Assembly (NCBI GenBank): GCA_900545755.1
Contig: URAG01000026.1
Location: forward strand, 1 to 29,811
Length of the DNA: 29,811 nt
From: an uncultured Cloacibacillus sp.
Lineage (GTDB): Bacteria; Synergistota; Synergistia; Synergistales; Synergistaceae
Direction of reading: 5' to 3'
The notes beneath the pieces are model-generated. The model made no database searches. It was not told the origin of the DNA and was given only the letters and a program-made list of their open reading frames with translations. The position numbers and the translations under genes are program-made. Positions 6,344 through 29,811 of this stretch are shown here, piece by piece; position 1 is the first letter of the stretch; the number at the start of each line of letters is the position of its first letter.

Positions 6344-9300
6344 CTATATAATCAAAGGGGCGGCATATCGTTTTATTTTCTTGCGCTGTCCTATTATCGT
6401 TTGAAGCGCACGAAGAAAATTACCGTCGCCAGCTTCCTTGGCGGCAAGATATAATCTCTTTGCGCCAACTACCGGAAACGGCGCCGTTATAAGAGACACA
6501 CCTTCGACGGCATTCCATATCCCGCGTTCAAATTTAGTCATGCCGGTATATTTACTTACTTCGTCCGAGTCTTCGGATGTAACATCCTCGTATCCCTTCA
6601 ATATTTTTGAAAGAGGCGCGACAAACGCGGAATAAGTCGTTCCGTTGTATCCCTGGCCTGAGAAAGATTCCCAGAAGGACATCAACTCTTTGCCTACGAG
6701 CGGAATAGATTCCACCGTCTGCTTAGTAAAAGCTGACAGCACCCACGCAGTCCAGCTTTCGTCGTTGTCGTCGTCAGGCATGCCGTCCACTATCGCCTTC
6801 ATAGCCACAGCGCATACCAGACATGCGGTAATGTTCCACAACGCCTCAGGATGGTCGCCTCGCTTTACAGCCTGCGCCATATCATAGGCAGTCATTCCGA
6901 GCAAGGGAGCTGCATCTGACGTGAATATCATCATGAGCCTAGCAAGGCCGCTCTGCCGCCATATCATCGGCGCGTCCTTAAGCATGGGCGTCTGCTGCGT
7001 GAGCAGCACCGCGCGCTGAGCCGCCCTTATAGCCTGCTCGCGCGGCAACTTTTTCTTGATATTCGAGTCAAACGTGGCTTTCCAGCCTATGGCTGCGACC
7101 GCTCTGTCCATGTACGATATGGGCGCGATGAGAGTCTCCATAGTTTTTCTATAGGCGTATTTAACGCCACCGGCAGCAGTCGGATCGTACTTATCTATGC
7201 TGAAGAAAGCATTCGGCAGACGATCCCGCATCTGTGGGTCCATGTCGTATATATCCTCCAGGAACTGCTTAGGATGGCTCACGTAGTCGGCAACCGCGCA
7301 CGCCAGTTCAGCGTGGCCTGCCGTAACTAAAAACCGCGGTATCGACGTCGTCTGTTTCATTACGGTTCCCAGATTGGCCGCAAGGTACGTGTACGCCATG
7401 TTTCCACCAAGAAAATGAGAGAGTTTGTCGAACACGTTTTTGCCCTGAGTCAGCCTGTCGCTGTTCACAAGATTGATATATTCCTGTACAGCCCGCCAAG
7501 TCCCTGTTCCGAACTTCTCTCGAATGAGTTTAGGAAGATTGTATGAACGGCCACTTAAGTCTTCAAAGTTCTCTGTGAACACGGAATGAAGATCCGGGCC
7601 GATCTGCGCGAAAGCCGCCGTGTGCTCCATGGCGTCGACCTGAGTATTCCAGATGGACAGTAGACCTAGTTGTATCGGGGCCTGGCGGTTGCGCCCTATT
7701 TCCTTGCCAGGTATAACGCGGGGATTTAAAAATCCTCTTTCCAGACCAGCTTTTCTTGCCCCCGCCTGTTCGGCGATGCCCCTCGCGTAGGCCGCTTCGT
7801 CCGCGTTTTCAAGCCCATGGTTCGACGTGTACTCCAACCGGTGCATCGGCGTGTAGTTCTCCTCCTTGAGCATGCCCTGGTTGAAATTGGCTATAAAGAT
7901 GTCGTTCATACGCTCGTAGTTCGCGTCGTACTCCTGGACGACATAGTCGGCAAGCTCCTTTTCTTTAGGTGTCAAAGCCTTGATGCACTCGCCTATATGC
8001 GCAAGCGCCGCCTCCGGCGCCGGAACGTCGTTCCCAGGCGCGTCAAATGCTTTAGCGTTCTCTATAAACCACTCGTCGGGGATAAGGTGCCGCATATTGC
8101 CGTATATAAGCGCCTGAGACGATTTATCGTTCTGCATCGCGGTATAGATAGACATCAGGCCATCGATGCTGTACTTATGCCCTCCTATGATACGTATTTT
8201 GCTCAAGTCATGCAGCGTTATCCCGAGCGATTTCATTTTCTTGTTCATGGCGTCGTGGCGTTCATGGATATGCCTCAGCTTTGCATCATACGCTGCGTTC
8301 ACCTCATCGACGCAGTGCTTCGAGAAGGCGCTGTTGAATTTTCCCTCGCCGTGTCCTATCCAGTCGAACAGGCGTATCGCGCCGAGCGTGTTAGCGTAGG
8401 TCCAATCCTTCACTTTTTCCGCCCGTCCTAGGATACCGTCGTACTGTTTCGAAAGGTCTTCCGCGCCTGAGACAGGTCCTTTTTTTATCTTGCTCTCAGT
8501 CTTTGCAAGGTCTTCGGCGCATTCAGTCCTTATCTTATTCCGCCTTTCGACAATGCCGGCGCGCCATACTTCATATTCTCTGCGGCCGCGAGCGTGTATC
8601 TCGTTTATCTCTTTTGCAAGAGCCGCAATCTCGGAGAGCTTCGCGTCAGAAAGACGAAGGTCGTTCAGCGTCATGCCGGCCGCTTCAAGCTTTTCTATCA
8701 GCCTTACGAACGGAGCATCCTTCGGGTTAATGTCTCTATAATCCAGGCCAAGGTCCTGTTTTATGGCGTCCATAAGAGACGCAGCCATCTTCATCCTTTC
8801 CGTAGGATATACTGCGGCGAATTTAGATTTGCGCCGCCTCCGTCCGGGCCGTTTTTTGTCCAGCTCCGTATCGTTGAGATTGACTATCTGACGGCTTTCT
8901 TTCAGCTTCGCAAGCATTTCCTGCTGTACCGACCATATCACCTTTTCGTCGTTGACGTCCCGGTTGATGCCGTTAAGCAGCTCGTCTATGTCGTTGAGCA
9001 AAGTCTTCCGCTTCTCAAGACGTTCGAACATAGCCTCACGTTTGCTTTTTGTTTTGTAATCGAAGCCAGGACGCTGGAATTTTGCACCGCGTTCTCCTTC
9101 GCTTCTTCCTCTATCGTAGCCAAGCGCTTCGCCTAGCCGGAATTTATTGCGTGATTCACGAGTATTGCTCTTCTCAAGTTCAGAAATACGCTCTTGAAGC
9201 ACATCGATTTCTTGAAGAAGGTCAGCAATCGTCGCGTTAGCTGAGTACGACTCATCCATTTCCTGCGGCGTAGCAAGCAAACGGTCGAAAACGTCCTGGA

Positions 9301-12300
9301 CTTCAGGCGTGATTACTTCTCCGGCGAATTTCGCATTAGAATAAATCTCCAACAGCCACATGCGCATTTTCTTGAAGATAGACCGAAGCGGATTCGACGG
9401 CGCTTCTCCCGTCATAACATAGGTCTCCATGGCGCGGGCCCATTTCTCATGCGCTGCCGTCAGTCTCGCACGCTGCGAGTCGTCGAGGCTGTTCAGATCT
9501 GAGAGGTCCATGTCTGAAACGCCGAGATAGTCAAGGACAGTTTTCAAGTCGCCGCTTATTTCTGTATCCACTTCGGCCTTATAACCGTAGCGAATGAGGT
9601 CGTCCAGGATAAGATGCCCCATTTCATGGATGAAAGTACTCCTGTCGGCCGTGCGGAAAAGCGTCACAAGCGCTTCGCCGGTATTACGGTTGAACGTAAT
9701 TCCTCCGCGCTTGCCTTTGGCAGCGGATTGATAGAACCGGTTCAGCTCCTCGTTCACCTTCTCATACTTCTGCGCCAGCCGCGCAAAACCATTGGAGGCC
9801 GCTTCGCCGGAGACGGCTTCCTCAGCTTTGACATTCTCCGCGTTTTCTGATACGTTAGATGTGCCTCCTGCATGCTGTTCTGACTTCTCGCTACCATCAG
9901 AAGAGGAACGGAAGTTACCAGGAGGCATTTTTTCTGCCTTCAGCAGTTCAAACGACACAAGCTCGACTGAATACAGTTTGTTATCCTGCCCTCGTATCTC
10001 GCGAACCGTAATATAAGCAATAGCAGCGTCTCGGCTGTCAGGTACTACGACCGGCGCGCCGAAGCGTTTTATCTCAACGACGTCGGCGCGTCGTTTTTCA
10101 TCTGGATGTGAGAAAAGCAGCTCCGAGTTCTTATACAGTTTGAGAATATTCGCGGCGGCTGTAATATGGTCCCGAAGAGTAAAACCGTTCGCTAAAGATT
10201 TATCGGACGCCTTTCCTGAAAGCATCTTCTTTATCCCGTTAGCCGCCAGCGAAACCGCAATTTTGTCGCTCTCGTTCTCGACGCCCTTCTCGGCTTTCTT
10301 TATCTGTTCACGGAGATAAGCCTTCGCCGCGTCGAACGAATTGAACACCTTATCCGGCATCGCCTTTTTCGTATCTTCGCTCATCTCGGAAACAGGGAGA
10401 TAGTCCTCGCCTGCAAAATCCTTGACGCCCGAAAGCATTTCTCTTATAGTGATCGGAGAAAGGCCCGGCAGATCGGCGAGCCCGTTATCGGGTGCCGCTG
10501 AGAGCCGGGCACCGCCCGGCAGATCGGTGAACCTGTTTTCAGGCGACGCTGATAGCCGGGCGTTTTTATCTTCTATTATCACGTCGTATAATTCGACAGT
10601 CCTGTGGTCTAGCTCTATGTCTCCATTTTTATTCTCTTCGGCAACCAGACGTATAACCTTATACGTTTCTCCGTCTACAGTAATCGGAACATACAGTCTA
10701 TGATAAAAAGCGACCTTGTTTTTCCGGTTTGCGCTCTGCCGCCTGCTTCTGGGCCATGACGGGTCAACCTCGATTATCTTTTCGTTTTTCATGCTTTCGA
10801 TAAGCACGGAAGCAGAAACTATATCCGACAGATTATCAAACGCGACCTTGCGCAGTGCGGGAACGTTCTTCGTAACATCTGACGGTGCGCTGGAATGTGA
10901 TAAATGTTCCGCGTGCTTTCTAAGTATCTCGACAACGGCTTTATTGTCCGCTGAGGTTATCTTCAGCGGCGTCATTTCACGTATCTTGTTTTTTAGCTCT
11001 TGAACGCCCGGATAATGCGTGCCGTCATACGACTTAGACAAATCGACGACGCTGACATGCGCATCAGGGTCTACATCAGCGTTCACCGGCTGATAATACG
11101 AACCGTCAGCGTCAGTATCTTTGCGTTGTACACGGAGCCTGTGCAGCTCCTTAGGGCTCATGTCAAGGCGTTTCCCAAGCGTGTACAGATAACGGCTGTA
11201 TAGGTCTGCGTTTGCAATGCTTGCCTCGTCGTCCATACCCGCCTCGCGAAGTTCCGAAGTTATTTCGCGGCGTACCTCTACGGCTTCCTTAGCATAGCCG
11301 TTGTTCTGTTCGAGCGGGTCCTGAAGCTTCCTGTTAAGGCGTTCCGCAGCTTCCCTCTTTGTAACGCCTCTCGCTCCTTCGCGGACGTCCATTTCTACTG
11401 ACTTTGCAAATTCAGGATGTTCCTCCGCTGTTTTTTCGAAATTCTCGCGCTTCACAGCCACTTCGCCGAGCTCGCTTATGACGCTGTCTTCCGTTATTCC
11501 GAGAGACGCCGCGACGGCGTCGGCGACGTCCGGATTCGACTGGAAGAAGGTGTCGACGGCGTCCTGTCCGAGAAAGACCATGCTCTCTTCGGCGACTGGA
11601 ACAGTACCGTCAACAGAACCTGACACGGCATCGTCTGCTGTGGTATTCGATTCTGCCGTCTTTTCCGGCGCGGATAACTTTTCCGCCGCAGCTGTCCTTA
11701 TGCCTTCTGCGGAATTCCGGTAACGCACGACACGCTTTGCGCCAACTGCCGTAGAATATGCGGAGCCGGGAGTCATCATAAGCGTGATGGAAGGCAGAGC
11801 GTCCAGCCCTGCGCTGGCTATACTTTCAAGCGCCTCTCCGAGCGTCATGTGCTTGTATTCAGGAAGCGTAGCCATCTTTATAGGCTCTCCGATAATGATA
11901 GAGGCGGCTTCCTGCATCATTTCTTCTACATCCTCGTCCCATACGCGCGCGGCGAAGTTCATTGCTCCTGTTTTCAGAGCGCCGGAGACAGTCGGATTCT
12001 TTACAGCTTGTTTTGCCATAAAGGCAGCCGTAAGCTTTTCCAGCTTAGAGGCTACGGCTGGATGAACTGCAAGCCCTTTTACAGCGCGTTTTCCGTAACG
12101 GAGCAGGTAGTCCATGATCATATCGCCGCCTATTTTTTCTCCAAACGAAGAAAGGACGCCGGAAAACATATTGCGCTCTATCCCGGCCGAGACTGCGCCG
12201 TAAAGGAACGACGCCGGCAGAGCCGCATACTGCGGCACACCGTCTTTTACCAGGCTCTCGTTGAATTCAGCCGATTCGCGCAGAAACATACGCGACAACA

Positions 12301-13192
12301 TCGATGAATCGTAGGCTATCCTCGCAGCTGCAAGCGCCGTCGCTCCTACCGCGACAGTCCCTGTAACCACTCCTGCGGGGACAAGAGCCGGCGCGGCCAT
12401 CGCGCCGATGGCAAGGCCGGCTCCGGCCGCCCAAAGGTCGCGTTTGTCCACCCACGAGGCGACGCTTCCCGCAGCGTCGAAAAACGCTTGTTTCAACCCT
12501 TGGTTGTAGGCAGGAGGCGAGAGTTCCGCTATCTCCTTGTCTATCTCCTCTATGCGTTTTGCGACGCCGTCAGACGGATGAAAAAGGTTGTCGTAATATA
12601 GAGCGCCGCGTTCGTCGCGCAGTTTGGATATTTTTATGCCGTTTTCTATATTTTGCGCGATGCTCATGCGCTCTTTTACAAGACCGCTGGACTTAGCCAT
12701 ACGGTAGAATTCTTCATCCGCGAAAAAAGCTTCCGGATTCACGCCGACGGCTTCGGCCTCGCGCGTGCGCAGATACACCTCTTTAGGTTCGAGCCCCGTC
12801 ACTTTGGATATGGCCTCTATGCGGTTCAGCTGCATATAACGCCTGCGTCCTGATTCAGATTCAGCGGTGCGGCCGAAAAACGAATTAACCTCTGAAGGTT
12901 CCTTCCTCAAGAGCATTTCGCCCTCATACTGCGCCAGACGTTTAAATATGGCGTCGTCGGAATAGCCTCTGACGCGCGCCTCAGTTATCGCATTCTTCTT
13001 ACTCGGATAAGCCAGAAAAAGATAATCGTCGTCAGCGCGTATCTCTTTGCGTTCAGGGGTATATGTCGGGTCCTGCGCGAGACGGAAAGAATCATCGTCA
13101 AAATCCCTTGCAATAACGGGGCCGTCATGCCGCGAAGGATATATAGTCGCTTCCGAACCGTCCTGCGCCGGACTTAGAAGCTCTTCCGTCAT
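6344..13192 (-). CDS. Giant polyvalent-type internal virion/ejection protein with zinc metallopeptidase motif
   Basis: 2282 residues, intact, AGGAGGTG before the ATG. Seen along it: a charged N terminus, a glycine/alanine-rich hydrophobic segment (about 255-300), further small-residue stretches to about 480, two copies of a domain like the large-polyvalent-protein domain LPD3 (about 711-877 and 970-1086), separated by a 17-residue tandem repeat, then a zincin motif HEMGH at 1189-1193 followed by the EKWARAMETYVMTGEAPS region typical of polyvalent-protein peptidases, a coiled coil (about 1317-1345), a Lys/Arg-rich helical middle, and a C-terminal region with a hydrophobic stretch near 2115-2137. 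Polyvalent proteins travel with phage DNA into the cell. Its place matches the giant ejection-type proteins of T7- and BPP-1-like podoviruses (T7 gp16). Roles in ejection and in taming the host are inferred. Confidence 0.8.
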   Translation of the reverse strand: MTEELLSPAQDGSEATIYPSRHDGPVIARDFDDDSFRLAQDPTYTPERKEIRADDDYLFLAYPSKKNAITEARVRGYSDDAIFKRLAQYEGEMLLRKEPSEVNSFFGRTAESESGRRRYMQLNRIEAISKVTGLEPKEVYLRTREAEAVGVNPEAFFADEEFYRMAKSSGLVKERMSIAQNIENGIKISKLRDERGALYYDNLFHPSDGVAKRIEEIDKEIAELSPPAYNQGLKQAFFDAAGSVASWVDKRDLWAAGAGLAIGAMAAPALVPAGVVTGTVAVGATALAAARIAYDSSMLSRMFLRESAEFNESLVKDGVPQYAALPASFLYGAVSAGIERNMFSGVLSSFGEKIGGDMIMDYLLRYGKRAVKGLAVHPAVASKLEKLTAAFMAKQAVKNPTVSGALKTGAMNFAARVWDEDVEEMMQEAASIIIGEPIKMATLPEYKHMTLGEALESIASAGLDALPSITLMMTPGSAYSTAVGAKRVVRYRNSAEGIRTAAAEKLSAPEKTAESNTTADDAVSGSVDGTVPVAEESMVFLGQDAVDTFFQSNPDVADAVAASLGITEDSVISELGEVAVKRENFEKTAEEHPEFAKSVEMDVREGARGVTKREAAERLNRKLQDPLEQNNGYAKEAVEVRREITSELREAGMDDEASIANADLYSRYLYTLGKRLDMSPKELHRLRVQRKDTDADGSYYQPVNADVDPDAHVSVVDLSKSYDGTHYPGVQELKNKIREMTPLKITSADNKAVVEILRKHAEHLSHSSAPSDVTKNVPALRKVAFDNLSDIVSASVLIESMKNEKIIEVDPSWPRSRRQSANRKNKVAFYHRLYVPITVDGETYKVIRLVAEENKNGDIELDHRTVELYDVIIEDKNARLSASPENRFTDLPGGARLSAAPDNGLADLPGLSPITIREMLSGVKDFAGEDYLPVSEMSEDTKKAMPDKVFNSFDAAKAYLREQIKKAEKGVENESDKIAVSLAANGIKKMLSGKASDKSLANGFTLRDHITAAANILKLYKNSELLFSHPDEKRRADVVEIKRFGAPVVVPDSRDAAIAYITVREIRGQDNKLYSVELVSFELLKAEKMPPGNFRSSSDGSEKSEQHAGGTSNVSENAENVKAEEAVSGEAASNGFARLAQKYEKVNEELNRFYQSAAKGKRGGITFNRNTGEALVTLFRTADRSTFIHEMGHLILDDLIRYGYKAEVDTEISGDLKTVLDYLGVSDMDLSDLNSLDDSQRARLTAAHEKWARAMETYVMTGEAPSNPLRSIFKKMRMWLLEIYSNAKFAGEVITPEVQDVFDRLLATPQEMDESYSANATIADLLQEIDVLQERISELEKSNTRESRNKFRLGEALGYDRGRSEGERGAKFQRPGFDYKTKSKREAMFERLEKRKTLLNDIDELLNGINRDVNDEKVIWSVQQEMLAKLKESRQIVNLNDTELDKKRPGRRRRKSKFAAVYPTERMKMAASLMDAIKQDLGLDYRDINPKDAPFVRLIEKLEAAGMTLNDLRLSDAKLSEIAALAKEINEIHARGRREYEVWRAGIVERRNKIRTECAEDLAKTESKIKKGPVSGAEDLSKQYDGILGRAEKVKDWTYANTLGAIRLFDWIGHGEGKFNSAFSKHCVDEVNAAYDAKLRHIHERHDAMNKKMKSLGITLHDLSKIRIIGGHKYSIDGLMSIYTAMQNDKSSQALIYGNMRHLIPDEWFIENAKAFDAPGNDVPAPEAALAHIGECIKALTPKEKELADYVVQEYDANYERMNDIFIANFNQGMLKEENYTPMHRLEYTSNHGLENADEAAYARGIAEQAGARKAGLERGFLNPRVIPGKEIGRNRQAPIQLGLLSIWNTQVDAMEHTAAFAQIGPDLHSVFTENFEDLSGRSYNLPKLIREKFGTGTWRAVQEYINLVNSDRLTQGKNVFDKLSHFLGGNMAYTYLAANLGTVMKQTTSIPRFLVTAGHAELACAVADYVSHPKQFLEDIYDMDPQMRDRLPNAFFSIDKYDPTAAGGVKYAYRKTMETLIAPISYMDRAVAAIGWKATFDSNIKKKLPREQAIRAAQRAVLLTQQTPMLKDAPMIWRQSGLARLMMIFTSDAAPLLGMTAYDMAQAVKRGDHPEALWNITACLVCAVAMKAIVDGMPDDDNDESWTAWVLSAFTKQTVESIPLVGKELMSFWESFSGQGYNGTTYSAFVAPLSKILKGYEDVTSEDSDEVSKYTGMTKFERGIWNAVEGVSLITAPFPVVGAKRLYLAAKEAGDGNFLRALQTIIGQRKKIKRYAAPLII
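10463..10564 (-). repeat. 51-bp tandem duplication inside the giant gene
   Basis: Units 10463-10513 and 10514-10564 both begin GCCCGGCAGATCGG and both carry AGCCGGGC near the end. They encode ARLSASPENRFTDLPGG and ARLSAAPDNGLADLPGL, 17 residues each, in frame. The two units have diverged at synonymous and replacement sites, so the duplication is not recent. It makes a proline/leucine-rich linker just after the first LPD3-like domain. Confidence 0.85.
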
Positions 13193-13203
13193 ACAAACAC
13201 CTC

Positions 13204-15075
13204 CTATTCCAGCTCTGAGTTCAGTTCGAGGATGTCGTCGAGAATATCCTCCACAGTCTCAGTCATGTCCTCTTCCGTTACGCCGCCTTTGGCCGGCGTA
13301 TCCTGCGGCTGCCACGGGCGCGGCGGCAGATCGCGCTTTACCTCTCTGAATTCAATAGCGTCGACGGCCTTTTTTAAGGTCCCCAGCTCGCTATCGCTGT
13401 TCCATAAAACTCCAATGTCTATATATGGAACGCCGGCGCTGTGCTGTTCCTCTATCGCTCTCAGCATCGCGCGCCGCGCCGCCTCGTCGACCTGTCTCTG
13501 GAAGTCTTCCGCTGCGGGGTCGACTTTGCGGCTTTCCTCACGGAAATAAAAGACGGCTGTGTTTCTGTTGGGATTCTGCGTGCCACCGAAAAGACTGCCG
13601 CCGCGGTTTTTCAGGAAGAAATCTATGTTCTTCTCTTTCATTTTCAGGTAGTCTTTATTCCCAGCGCTTAAATTCTTGCTGTATTCAATAATTTTGTTGG
13701 CCTCGTCGTTAGAGAGATATCCCATAGCGACCGCTTTTTTGAGCTCGCCGTCGGGAAGCCCTCTGAGCTTAGCCTCGCCAAACTGCGCGAAATAGAGATC
13801 ATGCTGTTCTTCGCTGATGCCCAGCCTTTCGCGTACCAGCCGCTCCTGCTCGTCCTGAGGGAGGCTCGTAAATTCCGGATTGAAATATGCCAGCTGACGC
13901 ACAGCTTCTGCCCTTGTAACCGGAGTGCGTGTAAGGGAAATTCCCGGCTTAGGGGCGAATACGCCGGTCCCGTGTACGCGGTCGTTGTCGACCTGAAGGC
14001 TGAGCGTCCACGCCTCTTTCTGCGCTCCATAGTCTTTGAATCTCTCTCCATAAGAAGCTATAAGCCGCTCGACTTCGTTGTGAGAGCCTCCGCCGTATAG
14101 GACCTTTTGAATCTCCAATTCAGCAGATTCCAACTCGGCAAGATGAGCCTTCTTGGTTTCTGAATACAACGAACTGACATAGCTACGATATACGTCTTCG
14201 TCTTTTCCTTCGTGTGTTTTTCGTACTTCGGCGAGAGCGTCGGAAAGGCCGTCTATGCCGTACTTGGACATAAGCCTTTCCGCCTCGTCCTGCGCCTTCA
14301 CCGGCAGCGCCGCCCGGCTTACAGCCTGACGAAGCTTCTCGTAACTCACGCCGTCGAAAGCCTTCTTAAACCGTTCCAGCATGGCCTCTGCGCGCAGCGG
14401 GTCGGTGTTCACGAGCGAATCCAAGCCGTAGCCTATAAGACGCCGCATAACGTCCATCTCGTTTTTGTCGTTCGTCTCTTTCCCCTGGTCACCGTTTATC
14501 GTCAGGTTCACCTGACGCGCCGACGAAATGGCGGCGTCCACAGCCTCCGGAGAATCGAAGCCTGCGGCGAGGGTTACGGCCTCGTTCTTCAGCCGTTCTT
14601 CCGCCTGTTCGGCGTTCCACTTGCGCACCTCCGAGGCCTCCTGGCGCGAAAGCGCGAACGTCGCGGCGCGTGCGTGAGGGATAACCGCCTCGCGGAACAT
14701 CATGCGCTGACGTTCGTTCTCAAGCTCTCCCGCCATCGTCTCGGCCTGGTTCTCATAAACATCGAGCGACCTGTCGTAAAGCCCCTTCGCGTTCGCGCCC
14801 GTCGTGAACATAAGCCCCTTCTGCGGGTCGAACCTCGTCTCCTGATCCCACTTGAGATAACGCGAGACGGCCTCGTTCACCTTCGCCTTGTCCCAGTCCT
14901 CCTGGCGGCGTTTCGCAACGGCCTCCAACTGCGCCGCCGCCTTCTTCGCCGCGTCTGCGAAAACCTCGCCGGAACGGTCGGCGACTCCGAAAGCCCCCTG
15001 CGGGGCCGACGTGCTGCGACGTATCCGCTCCACAGGCTCCTTAGCCACGACTCGCCTCATACGTTCAACCTGCAC
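13204..15075 (-). CDS. Internal virion protein, T7 gp15-like position
   Basis: 623 residues, mostly helical and charged, with no membrane segment. The GTG start at 15075 is preceded by GGGGGTG. Long Ala/Glu/Arg-rich helices run throughout (for example AKKAAAQLEAVAKRRQEDWD near residue 45). A feature resembling repeated helical pairs fits T7 gp15 and the corresponding BPP-1-type core proteins, which form the internal core and are ejected to build a DNA conduit. I see no enzymatic motif. It lies between the gp14-like gene and the giant gene, the same order as in T7-like virion modules. The call depends on order and composition rather than a signature. Confidence 0.6.
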   Translation of the reverse strand: MQVERMRRVVAKEPVERIRRSTSAPQGAFGVADRSGEVFADAAKKAAAQLEAVAKRRQEDWDKAKVNEAVSRYLKWDQETRFDPQKGLMFTTGANAKGLYDRSLDVYENQAETMAGELENERQRMMFREAVIPHARAATFALSRQEASEVRKWNAEQAEERLKNEAVTLAAGFDSPEAVDAAISSARQVNLTINGDQGKETNDKNEMDVMRRLIGYGLDSLVNTDPLRAEAMLERFKKAFDGVSYEKLRQAVSRAALPVKAQDEAERLMSKYGIDGLSDALAEVRKTHEGKDEDVYRSYVSSLYSETKKAHLAELESAELEIQKVLYGGGSHNEVERLIASYGERFKDYGAQKEAWTLSLQVDNDRVHGTGVFAPKPGISLTRTPVTRAEAVRQLAYFNPEFTSLPQDEQERLVRERLGISEEQHDLYFAQFGEAKLRGLPDGELKKAVAMGYLSNDEANKIIEYSKNLSAGNKDYLKMKEKNIDFFLKNRGGSLFGGTQNPNRNTAVFYFREESRKVDPAAEDFQRQVDEAARRAMLRAIEEQHSAGVPYIDIGVLWNSDSELGTLKKAVDAIEFREVKRDLPPRPWQPQDTPAKGGVTEEDMTETVEDILDDILELNSELE

Positions 15076-26291: not shown

Positions 26292-26573
26292 ATGCCCAAA
26301 ACAGAAATGCTCCACGTAAGAGTAGAACCCGAAATAAAACAGATGGCTGACCAGACCTTCCGCAGCCTCGGCCTCACCACAGCCGACGCGATAAACGTAT
26401 TCCTGCGCAAAGCCATAGACGCCGGAGGCTTCCCCTTCGCAGTCCGCCGCCGGCTCAGCAAAGAAACGCTTGACGCTATGGAAGAGGGTTGGCGCTTAGC
26501 CCGCGACCCAAACGCCAAACGTTATCATTCTATGGAAGAAATAATTGCGGGGCTGGAATCTGATGACGAATAA
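26292..26573 (+). CDS. dinJ: Antitoxin, RelB/DinJ family
   Basis: 93 residues, AAAGGAG nine bases before the ATG. HVRVEPEIKQMADQTFRSLG, LTTADAINVFLRKAI is the ribbon-helix-helix DNA-binding domain of RelB/DinJ, and the C-terminal half (LSKETLDAMEEGWRLARDPN, then HSMEEIIAGLE) is the usual toxin-binding helix. It overlaps the toxin gene by 11 bases. DinJ neutralises YafQ and represses the operon. On the plus strand, opposite to terS, between the late regulator and terminase. Confidence 0.93.
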   Translation: MPKTEMLHVRVEPEIKQMADQTFRSLGLTTADAINVFLRKAIDAGGFPFAVRRRLSKETLDAMEEGWRLARDPNAKRYHSMEEIIAGLESDDE

Positions 26574-26850
26574 ATACGACGTTGTATGGACAAAGCAATT
26601 CAAAAAAGACTATAAGGCCGCCAAACGTCAAAGAAAAGACATCACGCTTTTGCTCGACGTCATTGAAATGCTCGCCAACGATGTACCTTTGCCGCCTCGA
26701 CATGAAGACCACGCGCTGGCCGGCAACTGGAAAGGCTATCGTGAATGCCACGTCTCGCCCGACTGGCTTCTGGTCTACATAAAAGAGGCGGATGTCTTAG
26801 TCCTTACTCTCTACCGCGCCGGAAGCCACGCAGAAATCTTCGGCAAATAA
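26563..26850 (+). CDS. yafQ: Toxin YafQ, mRNA endonuclease of RelE fold
   Basis: 95 residues from ATG 26563, within the end of dinJ. All YafQ active-site residues can be placed: H50, H63, D67, W68 and H89 (in HEDHALAGNWKGYRECHVSP, DWLLVYI and LYRAGSHAEIF). This is a ribosome-dependent mRNA interferase that cuts at specific codons when the antitoxin is depleted. Length is normal for the family, so it looks active. A hairpin follows the stop, but its T run is on the opposite strand. Confidence 0.93.
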   Translation: MTNKYDVVWTKQFKKDYKAAKRQRKDITLLLDVIEMLANDVPLPPRHEDHALAGNWKGYRECHVSPDWLLVYIKEADVLVLTLYRAGSHAEIFGK

Positions 26851-27090: not shown

Positions 27091-27537
27091 TCATTTCAGC
27101 GCGCCCATCCGCCAGTCCTCAAGCAGCGGCTGAACGTCGAGGACGGGGCGGTAAAGCCGGTTCAGGGCGCGCGAGATATGCCGGTAGACCGTGCTGTTGC
27201 TGAACATAAGTTCCGCCGCAACGTCCGGCACCTCCATCTTCCGCCAGTAACGCAGCGCCAGCACGCGCCGCTCGTCGGCGGAAAGCGCGCAGTAAGGCTC
27301 GTATATCCCGAACACCAGCGCCGAAAGGCTCCGCATCACGGGGTCGTCGTAGCGGTCGAGATACCTGTCCCCAGCGCATGACGCGCCGCCGCCGTCAACG
27401 CGCTCGTCATAAATACAGCCCCCGGCTAGCGCCCTCGCGTCCAGCATGAGTTTGTAACCGTCATAATCCCGCTTGATAGCCGGGAAATCCATCACCGCCC
27501 CCTCGGCGATCCTGTGCCTGTACGACGCCACCGTCAT
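27091..27537 (-). CDS. Sigma-like phage late transcription regulator (ArpU/RinA-type)
   Basis: 148 residues from ATG 27537; GTG 27531 is better spaced from AAGGAGG, so the product may begin two residues later. The C-terminal half has YCALSADERRVLALRYWRKM then PDVAAELMFSNSTVYRHISRALNRL, a sigma-70 region-4-like helix-turn-helix with a recognition helix STVYRHISRALNRL. Such proteins activate late gene transcription in temperate phages and are encoded just upstream of the terminase genes, as here. The N terminus (DFPAIKRDYDGYKLMLDARA) is family-like but less distinctive. Confidence 0.75.
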   Translation of the reverse strand: MTVASYRHRIAEGAVMDFPAIKRDYDGYKLMLDARALAGGCIYDERVDGGGASCAGDRYLDRYDDPVMRSLSALVFGIYEPYCALSADERRVLALRYWRKMEVPDVAAELMFSNSTVYRHISRALNRLYRPVLDVQPLLEDWRMGALK

Positions 27538-27568
27538 TCCTCCTTCTCCGTTCTCGTGTTTAACCCTT

Positions 27569-27666
27569 GCGCGTTTTGCGCGGCGCGACGGCGTTCCCCG
27601 TTCGCGTAAGCGGACATTTCAGACGGCCTTAAAGAGCGCCTAGTGCCGCGCGCGTTTTGCGCGGCG
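27569..27666. repeat. 17-bp direct repeat
   Basis: GCGCGTTTTGCGCGGCG occurs perfectly at 27569-27585 and 27650-27666, 81 bp apart. Each copy is itself a near-palindrome (GCGC..GCGC). It flanks the left edge of the iteron array and is different from the iteron motif, so it may be a second site, for the late regulator or the initiator. Confidence 0.8.
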
Positions 27667-27709
27667 AGCGCTTGCGGGCGCTTTTCGTAACGCCCGCGAA
27701 AACGCTCGC
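27664..27709. repeat. Nested perfect inverted repeat made of four iterons
   Basis: GCGAGCG (27664-27670) pairs with CGCTCGC (27703-27709), and GCGGGCG (27674-27680) with CGCCCGC (27691-27697), around a loop CTTTTCGTAA. The 46-bp element is the most stable fold in the non-coding region and is built from the same motif as the surrounding iterons. Confidence 0.75.
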
Positions 27710-27971
27710 ATGCGAAAAATCCAGTCTGTAGCCTTATTTATATATACATTGCGAGCACTGCGAGCACTTTAGAACTCATAAATTAGAAAATCATATTAAG
27801 ATAAAATTTCCTTAATTTACCCTGAAAAAAGCGCCGAAACGCCCGCAGAGGGTACACTAATCCCGTCATACCAACGGTTTTTCTTTCGCGAGCGCTTCCG
27901 CGAGCACTTTTGAAACGCTCGCGCCCCGTGCCCGAAAGCCTTGATATGACTGTATTCTTAAATGCGGGCGT

Positions 27972-29735
27972 TTAACGGTAGAGATATGAAACGCTCGCGG
28001 CCTGCTTCAGCTTCTTCGGAGGCACGCGCCAAAGACGGGCGTTCTCGTGGCCAGACTTTTTACTCGTCGTCCCCGTCAGCTTGCGCAGCACCCTCGCCGC
28101 CTTCATGGCGTCGCCGGGGCGCGGTATGCCTATGAATCCGGCTTCGATAAGCGCCTCCGTCGCTGTCATCTCGCACCAGAACTCGCGCGCTATCTCCCAG
28201 TCCAGCCCCTGCGTCAGCAGCTCCTCGACGGGGTTCGGGGCCTCGAACTGCCAGTTCTGGCGCGCAAGCTCCTCTTCCTCCTCTTTTGTGAGCCACCACT
28301 GCCCGAGCGGGTCTTCCGTGCCGCGCATGTAGTAGTCCTCGTAGATTTCGGCCCATATCTGCTGCATGTCGCGGCGGTCGACCATGTCCATGCGCTCGAC
28401 CGGGATGCACCACCATCTTGAGTTCCCCGTATCGTCTATGAGGATCTCGCGCTGGTTCACCGTAGCGCCGAAGACCGTGCGCCGCTGGAACTCGCTCATG
28501 CGCCGCCCCCACGGCATTCGCAGCACGTCCGTGCTGCGCGTGAGGAAGTTTTTCAAGGCCGACATGTCGGAACGTTTGAAAGTCCCCGCCCGCTCGCCCA
28601 GTTCCGTGATCCAGAAGGATATGGCGCGTTACAGGCTGTCCTTGTCGTTCGGGTCGAGCCCTATGCCCTCGTTGAAAAACTCGTCGCGCCCCGCGAGATT
28701 GCGGAACCACGTCGTCTTCCCTATTCCCTGGCCACCGATGAGGACGAGCACGCCCCTGTAGTGGAAGCCCCGCGGATGGAAGGCCGCCGCCGCGGCGGAG
28801 ACGAGCCACTTACGCATAAGCAGTTCCTTGAAACCGCGCGGGAAACCCTTCTCCTCGACGACGGAGTCGTAGACGTTCCCGATGCGGTGCATCCCGTCCC
28901 ACGGCTCTGAAAGTATCCACTCCCGCACCGGGTTGACGGCGTTCCTCGCAGCCATTTCGGAAAGGAACGGGTCTACGTTGCTCGAAGGAAAACCCCACTG
29001 CGCGCAGAGCGAAAGAATACGCCCCAGCGTCGCGTTCTTCACGTCGTCGCCGCAGTAGGCGCGCCCCGGCACGTCGATGATGCCCTCTTTCTTTATCTCG
29101 TCATATTTTACGCTGATTCCCGCGTAAGCGAGCAGCGCCTCAAGATTTGCGATAGTGCCCTTAGGACGCCCCGTCGTCTCGCTGATATGCACGAACTGCG
29201 GATAAGCGTGCCGCTCCTTATATTCCGAACGCGCCTTGAAACGTTCCAGCTTGCCAAGCATCGCCGCGCGCGTCTTTTTAAGGCCGTGCTTCGCGGCGTA
29301 GTCGTTCCAGTCGGACAGCTTCTCGCCCTCGTCGAAGTCAGGATAGACGAAAGGGACGCCCGTCTCGTCGAATATTTTAAGCGCGGCCGCGCCCCCGGTG
29401 TTCCCCATGCGCTTATAACGGTCGTTGTCGGCTGCGATGACGAATTCAACGGAAGGCCATAGCTCGCGGACGTTCTGTATAACGGGGCGCAGGTTGCCGG
29501 CGTCGGCCGCCGCTATCACGTCGTCCCCCGTCGCTTCCGCTATGGAACAGCCGGTGGCCCAGCCTTCGCACACCCAGCAGCGCGGAGAAATCTGCGCCGG
29601 CAGGCCGCGTTTTTCCCCTGCGGCTTCCTCCTTTCCACCCCCTAGAATAAGCTCACGCGACGCCGACGGAGAGCCCCCTTCGCCGTAAGGCGAAGCCGAA
29701 AAACTTCCACAGGGCTCTCCTAGCGCCCTATGAAG
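27972..29735 (-). pseudogene. Toprim/VirE-type phage primase-helicase, interrupted and truncated
   Basis: One frame can be followed from 29735 to 27972, broken by a single in-frame TAA at 28631-28629. Upstream part: a Toprim block CEGWATGCSIAEATG, FVIAADND, then FDEGEKLSDWND; next a VirE-type AAA+ helicase with Walker A GGQGIGKTT (28711-28736) and EGIGLDPNDKDS. Downstream of the stop the same frame continues RAISFWITELGERAG, then RMPWGRRMSEFQRRTVFGATV, NQREILIDDTGNSRWWCIPV, core of the same domain. The intact family has SVKQAVSFW at this point. The 5' end is lost to the IS at 29736; GTG 29573 is only an internal restart. Likely the P4-alpha-like replication initiator, now non-functional as one chain. 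Confidence 0.85.
29668..29720. repeat. Nested palindromic repeat within the primase frame
   Basis: Outer arms GGAGAGCCC (29668-29676) and GGGCTCTCC (29712-29720) enclose a perfect inner hairpin CTTCGCC-GTAA-GGCGAAG (678-695 in the last three digits). Read in the primase frame it gives a low-complexity Ser/Gly/Pro segment (CGSFSASPYGEGGSPSAS). It looks like a REP- or MITE-like palindrome inserted into the gene, not part of a Toprim domain. Confidence 0.55.
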
Positions 29736-29811
29736 TGATCTGAGCCCTAAAATTTAGACAAATAAAGAAGCCCTCCAGTACAGTAACGTATAAAATAGTA
29801 CAAGGAGGGCT
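29736..29811 (+). mobile_element. Left end of an IS3-family (IS150 group) insertion sequence
   Basis: The 25 bases from 29736 begin TGATCTGAGCCC and end AATTTAGACA, matching in length and layout the IS150-group terminal inverted repeat (TG..CTG..CCC...GACA). After it come -10-like TATAAAAT (29789-29796) and AAGGAGGG (29802-29809), as expected just before orfA. The transposase, the other end and the target duplication are outside the window. The inserted end cuts the primase frame after codon 29733-29735. Confidence 0.75.
29769..29811 (+). promoter_or_regulatory. Hairpin sequestering the IS ribosome-binding site
   Basis: AGCCCTCC (29769-29776) is perfectly complementary to GGAGGGCT (29804-29811), with GTAC/GTAC extending the stem inward. 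The right arm contains the ribosome site. Transcripts from outside would fold and hide it; transcripts from the internal TATAAAAT would start near 29803 and lack the left arm. IS10 and IS50 use this logic to avoid activation by outside promoters. Confidence 0.65.

Follow-up and report, generated by a model that had tools for sequence, protein, structure and literature searches.

The window analysed here is a 29,811-nucleotide stretch of contig URAG01000026.1 (assembly GCA_900545755.1), assigned to an uncultured Cloacibacillus sp. It contains much of a podovirus-like prophage, and near its right end an array of short repeats (iterons) lies directly 3' of a minus-strand gene identified by family scans as a VapE-family (PF05272) Toprim primase-helicase. 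Twelve copies of the motif GCGRGCRYTT were located between 27664 and 27998, ten of them exact and two with one mismatch (27688–27697 and 27751–27760), with seven copies on the plus strand and five on the minus strand. It is highly likely that this array is the replication origin of the prophage, whose host would be of Synergistota type, and that it is recognised by the adjoining primase-helicase. Coordinates of the features are provided in Table 1.

Iteron array and primase-helicase gene

Within positions 27564–28050 (487 bp), ten exact and 14 one-mismatch matches to GCGRGCRYTT were observed, compared to maxima of two and five, respectively, in 2000 dinucleotide shuffles of the same sequence. 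No other 335-bp stretch of the window holds more than two copies, and single exact copies outside the array occur at 1813, 15438 and 26666. Over the whole window, 40 matches with at most one mismatch were counted against a shuffle mean of 29.9, and 40 or more were reached in 5 of 100 shuffles.

The number, mismatches and both orientations of the copies are as described in the original prediction, as is the nested palindrome of four copies, which runs + + − − over 27664–27709. The AT-rich core that it had placed at 27732–27829 is indeed 72% AT, versus 43% for the window, but two iteron copies (27751–27769) fall inside it. The copies form two groups flanking an AT-rich core, one comprising 27664–27709 and the pair at 27751–27769 and the other spanning 27837–27998. 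The array was also said to lie beside the primase; it does sit between the regulator and primase genes, except that the last copy (27989–27998) is within the 3' coding end of the primase gene, which ends at 27972.

Table 1 Features of the array region and its flanking genes.
Feature	Coordinates	Strand	Description
Sigma-70 region 4-like regulator	27091..27537	-	Next gene past the array; similar gene after the array in L001 and L009
Segment with 17-bp direct repeats at its ends (27569-27585, 27650-27666)	27567..27650		80-90 bp, between array and regulator; gapped in alignment with L001 and L009
Iteron group 1	27664..27709	both	+27664, +27674, -27688 (1 mismatch), -27700; inverted nest of four copies
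Tandem iteron pair	27751..27769	+	27751 (1 mismatch), 27760; 9-bp step; edge of AT-rich core
AT-rich core	27770..27836	none	73% AT; presumed melting site
Iteron group 2	27837..27998		Six copies: -27837, +27888, +27900, -27913, +27964, -27989
Second conserved element, CAGTCATAYCAANG type	27863..27876	+	One half of inverted pair
Second conserved element, other half	27939..27952	-	Other half of inverted pair
Primase-helicase 3' piece	27972..28628	-	VapE helicase C-part and C-terminal winged helix, wing GHENAR
In-frame TAA	28629..28631	-	Splits the primase-helicase gene in this record
Primase-helicase 5' piece	28632..29753	-	Toprim_3 and VapE N-part

The closest solved structure to the window-type primase in a profile search was PriRep1 (7pds), which we take to be a protein of a Staphylococcus aureus pathogenicity island (SaPI). 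The C-terminal domain folded alone returned weak, mostly generic winged-helix structure matches, and the P4 structure 1ka8 was not among the best 50 matches listed in either search with this fold.

Conservation in close relatives

An intact 755-amino-acid version of the primase was found on two contigs, both of which keep the array layout: L009, a contig of Candidatus Caccocola faecipullorum (Synergistota), and L001, a 127-kb viral contig whose terminase, connector and head genes belong to the same families as those in the window. DNA similarity of the window to both stops at 29608, and the first part of its own primase gene is absent from the window. At all 12 window sites the motif is present in L009, nine times exactly and three times with one mismatch. 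L001, whose primase is 94% identical to that of L009, instead carries GGAC at 11 of the 12 sites where the window has GAGC or GGGC, with no recognisable copy in register at the twelfth. At the iteron group 1 sites the motif is found at four of four positions in L009 (one with a mismatch) and at three of four in L001. The iteron forms that accompany the L009 and L001 primases are GCGAGCACTT and GCGGACACTT, respectively, and the blocks between the copies remain alike in the diverged arrays. Such a nearly total concerted change of the copies between similar spacers is expected if one protein reads all of them and its preference has shifted. An AT-rich stretch was judged by reading to lie at the corresponding place in L001, L009, L011 and L012.

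Covariation of wing residues and iteron bases

The new part of this work is a covariation between the iteron sequence and residues in the wing of the predicted C-terminal winged helix, which was statistically strong in one subgroup and held on further loci. The training set contained 134 distinct loci, 83 of which had at least four iteron copies; 58 of these belonged to the largest subgroup, and 42 remained after removal of sequences at least 85% alike. When 392 alignment columns were scanned against the presence of CCC in the iteron of these 42 loci, one wing residue ranked best (p = 7.5e-9; next column p = 1e-3), arginine occurring with CCC in 0 of 21 loci and other residues in 18 of 21. The CCC feature had been picked after the first loci were viewed, and the column scan and the held-out test guard against that selection.

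The held-out set comprised 78 distinct new loci, 41 with at least four copies and 39 of those long enough to align; removal of nine near the training set and four near-duplicates left 26, each less than 85% identical to the training loci in the C-terminal domain. Rules were fixed after the new loci had been fetched and before their arrays and wings were computed. CCC was found in 0 of 19 held-out loci with arginine versus 5 of 7 with other residues (p = 3e-4), and in 0 of 15 versus 5 of 5 among the 20 loci within the subgroup (p = 6e-5). Pooled within the subgroup, the counts were 0 of 36 and 23 of 26 (p = 4e-14). On a tree built without the C-terminal domain, there are 13 changes of the wing residue and 12 of the motif; independent pairs were 7:0 in the predicted direction, with two showing no difference (p = 0.016).

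Another wing column, five residues further on in L063, ranks first of the 392 for GTC iterons (p = 8e-11), with GTC in 29 of 32 loci having arginine and 3 of 30 having other residues; the independent-pairs test for this column was not significant (median p = 0.06). The second rule, whose classes were assigned by hand from the motifs, first paired arginine with CCGC. It was narrowed to GTCC because two held-out arginine loci have GTCC without the full CCGC; two held-out glycine loci carry CAG, matching the rule as written. In the Synergistota-type branch, which has a longer wing, all 13 distinct loci with an array follow one rule, whereby N, R and G at one wing position are paired with GA, GG and TG in the iteron. 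Residue and motif change five times each on the tree, and the independent pairs, only three in number, are all concordant. The window, with wing GHENAR and iteron GCGRGC, falls in the N class of this rule. One locus with the long wing, L056, has no array.

The K/R rule at the first position has its exceptions. Two are real within the tested group (L007 and L188), and a third, L132, seems to reflect an error of the detector, as CCC-type copies are visible in its sequence. Among held-out loci outside the subgroup, L197 and L233 have lysine without CCC. The rule cannot be extended to the marine subfamily (L030–L041 and kin), where TACCCTG accompanies K as well as R at the apparent wing position.

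Pairing of arginine with guanine and of asparagine with adenine is classical chemistry of protein–DNA contacts, and the wing residues may contact iteron bases. The proposed code reads K for CCC and R for CA-type cores at the first position, R for GTC at the second, and N, R or G for GA, GG or TG in the Synergistota branch. On balance we favour the combined proposal that a PICI-type origin module (that of phage-inducible chromosomal islands, PICIs) is widespread in tailed phages with structural genes and that their initiators read the iterons through this simple wing code.

Arrays in wider relatives

Relatives of the primase were found at 17 places in 14 of 185 Synergistota genomes searched; four of these places run off the fragment. 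All seven full-length loci with downstream sequence, which include L009 again and one locus that is nearly L001, carry a 7-mer in 7–12 copies just past the 3' end of the gene. The distant Synergistota loci L102 and L105 have seven and nine copies, and the distant, damaged L101 has only three. At other places four copies (L107, with only 90 bp downstream), three (L104) and two (L108, where the match is not a primase C-terminus) were counted.

A scan of viral contigs with the family alignment yielded 80 loci, such scans returning the best 80 matches each. A fixed detector was applied, which takes the most frequent 7-mer on both strands from −40 bp to +460 bp of the stop codon, with a threshold of five copies; exact 7-mers undercount degenerate arrays. 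After 20 of 109 loci had been dropped (duplicates, short flanks and matches that are not a primase C-terminus), at least five copies were detected in 43 of 89 distinct loci, whereas control windows taken from those loci reached this number in 25 of 1272 cases (odds ratio 47). The motif varies from lineage to lineage (TGTCCGC, TGCTCGC, TGTTCGC, TGTCAGC, TACCCT, TGCACT, GGTCAC and others). Read by eye, the arrays often contain a tandem pair 8–10 bp apart adjoining an AT-rich stretch. In L012 a second, different array of ACTCGCAA type, with ten copies of a 7-mer, was seen at about 13550–13700, roughly 6 kb downstream of the primase array.

The evidence against generality of the module is plain: in many distant relatives that possess the primase no array was found. 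Five copies were not reached by 46 of the 89 loci with the fixed detector, nor by 73 of 134 and 46 of 78 loci in the later sets, for which the stretch was 40 bp shorter. Ten named phages whose primases are related, taken from 40 listed of 624 matching records, all stay below five copies in the tested 460 bp. Alexa is nearest, with four copies of a 7-mer in the tested stretch; in this phage AGTGCA occurs 11 times from +279 to +529, first inside a small annotated gene, which fits the wing rule. phiWae15 has four copies inside an annotated gene, and Bas97, FoX1, Mano, ECO1230-10, PPpW-3, Arya, Mica and ep3 have two or three each. The original prediction had regarded relatives that keep the primase and lack the motif as evidence against an origin. 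Such relatives were found; in the close ones, however, a different motif occupies those very positions, and this speaks for an origin.

Probable assignment as an origin and alternative explanations

Recognition of the array as a phage origin by the phage's own primase-helicase, as originally predicted, is strongly supported by its position, its conservation in intact relatives and the wing covariation. Together with the array itself, the rewriting of its copies, the predicted winged helix and the PriRep1 match, these make the assignment very probably correct. Copies of the primase-helicase would bind the iterons through the C-terminal winged-helix domain and assemble on both flanks of the AT-rich core; after melting this core they would be loaded to serve as the replicative helicase, while the Toprim part would supply priming. 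We infer binding, melting, loading and origin activity, as well as the identity of the host. The prediction that the origin has been orphaned is plausible, the gene being broken in this record and the array intact. Because its initiator gene is broken, the origin is probably idle here in the absence of a related initiator working in trans. The GC-skew check proposed in the original prediction, made over the whole window, showed no switch at the array.

The repeats could instead be operators of a transcription regulator, such as the sigma-r4-like neighbour or a phage repressor, given that the array lies between two genes, adjoins a regulator gene and is accompanied by a second conserved inverted element. 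That is improbable: the motif tracks wing residues of the primase, the protein for which covariation was examined, and the AT-rich stretch with its tandem pair matches the ori of phage P4. Marginally less probable still is a centromere-like or incompatibility array of parS type, serving partition or copy control and perhaps bound by the primase-helicase. In its favour, the array takes the same place immediately behind the gene as P4 crr, an element with an annotation separate from that of ori; yet this annotation names crr a cis required region for replication, and the AT-rich core and tandem pair suit an origin. A chance or host-genome cluster resembling repetitive extragenic palindromes (REP-like), devoid of phage function, is hardly credible; a 17-bp direct repeat does adjoin the array, yet the position is conserved in intact relatives with concerted sequence change, and the enrichment over control windows is about 47-fold in odds.

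Comparison with known origins

The layout and the presumed mechanism are already known, since the published SaPI/PICI layout likewise has iteron sets on both sides of an AT-rich core, next to the 3' end of the initiator gene. In SaPI Rep proteins the C-terminal domain recognises iterons directly downstream of the gene (PMC7581432). In E. coli PICIs the origin is described as always following the 3' end of the initiator gene immediately, with an AT-rich region between two iteron sets; a legend describes how one such origin was tested on a plasmid (PMC6092414). The window shares the array immediately 3' of the initiator gene (a likeness of position only), the iteron sets on either side of an AT-rich region, and an initiator of the VapE/PriRep1 helicase kind with a predicted C-terminal DNA-binding domain. 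It differs from these satellites in carrying terminase, portal, major head and tail genes (L001 also has terminase, portal and head genes) and in its iteron sequence. Its Toprim primase is fused N-terminally, whereas the primases of SaPIbov1 and SaPI5 are of the AEP kind (PMC7581432).

The enzyme had been called P4-alpha-like. The layout bears this out, as crr in P4 likewise adjoins the 3' end of alpha; the protein does not, being of the VapE family and closest, among solved structures, to PriRep1. P4 alpha likewise joins a primase, a helicase and a C-terminal DNA-binding domain; P4 also has a short iteron of similar shape (CTGTTCACC) and, in its ori, a tandem pair abutting an AT-rich stretch, as found in several relatives. 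P4 differs in that ori and crr are about 4.5 kb apart. An alpha-type helicase was rejected, the A2 profile leading to 7pds and P4 alpha to 1ka8 (a match covering alpha residues 671–770) and the SaPI5 primase 7ola. A P4 type 1 iteron was rejected as well; most P4 copies read (C/T)TGTTCACC, from which the window motif differs. The probable origin is of the SaPI/PICI layout and not a P4 relative proper. Reportedly, the origin of Streptococcus thermophilus phage Sfi21 also lies 3' of its primase gene.

An iteron plasmid of RepA/TrfA/Rep_3 type was likewise rejected, the neighbours being the VapE primase pieces and the sigma-r4-like protein, with no Rep_3/RepA-type initiator. In Cch2 of the staphylococcal cassette chromosome mec (SCCmec), short repeats just past the helicase gene are bound by the C-terminal domain, as is proposed for the present enzyme; Cch2 differs in having a Primase_Cterm/D5-type helicase, three 5-nt iterons and a separate polymerase-type primase, and its origin is putative (PMC7581432). 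With geminivirus Rep and its iterons only the evolutionary principle is common, the rolling-circle initiator and the viruses being unrelated (PMC12548392).

Neighbouring features

Additional prophage products encoded in the window include small and large terminase subunits, a protease, a major head protein, tail proteins, an internal virion protein and an endolysin-like protein. The head-tail connector gene (Head-tail_con, 7e-139) is nearest to phages such as phiV10, with 35–40% identity among the best 20 of 227 records. A 2282-amino-acid reading frame in the virion gene region (6344–13192, minus strand) is about as long as a large internal virion or tail protein would be. The family scans of 19 window reading frames revealed no integrase; a tRNA-Val gene at the left end (29–103) is a possible integration site. 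A RelE-like toxin gene (26545–26850, plus strand; PHROG 7251, E = 2e-32) lies on the strand opposite to the phage genes, and reading frame 6320–6622 of L009 appears RelB-like by eye. The array region had no DNA match among 50,697 phage records.

Several Synergistota loci whose arrays are of other iteron types have stretches like the CAGTCATAYCAANG-type element next to the array, according to a motif search that was seeded with the window's own copy and is thus biased towards finding it. A host or phage factor shared by those loci may act at the inverted element. Positions 27567–27666 hold one L001-type motif (GCGGACATTT, at 27610) and a single GCCGTCTGAA, which 11 of 100 shuffles also contain; by eye, a resembling stretch comes after the array in L097. 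At the window end (29690–29811), where the first part of the primase gene should lie, small palindromic stretches and a AGCCCTCC...GGAGGGCT inverted repeat were seen by eye, possibly a mobile or assembly-breaking repeat.

Implications

The occurrence of the SaPI/PICI layout in phages with structural genes was less expected. It runs counter to the 2018 statement (PMC6092414) that no other known bacterial replicon shares this origin layout, and it bears on how satellites and phages acquired their replication modules. In the literature searched, outside which most subscription journals lie, neither this layout in tailed phages nor a residue–base code for the VapE-type helicase family was reported. 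The joint change of the copies and the initiator wing suggests how close phages come to differ in nearly every copy of their origin repeats. If the combined proposal is true, the protein sequence alone could suffice to predict origins and to guess at compatibility between phages and satellites. Should the covariation arise from direct contacts, it would amount to a protein–DNA recognition code for a self-loading family of replicative helicases.
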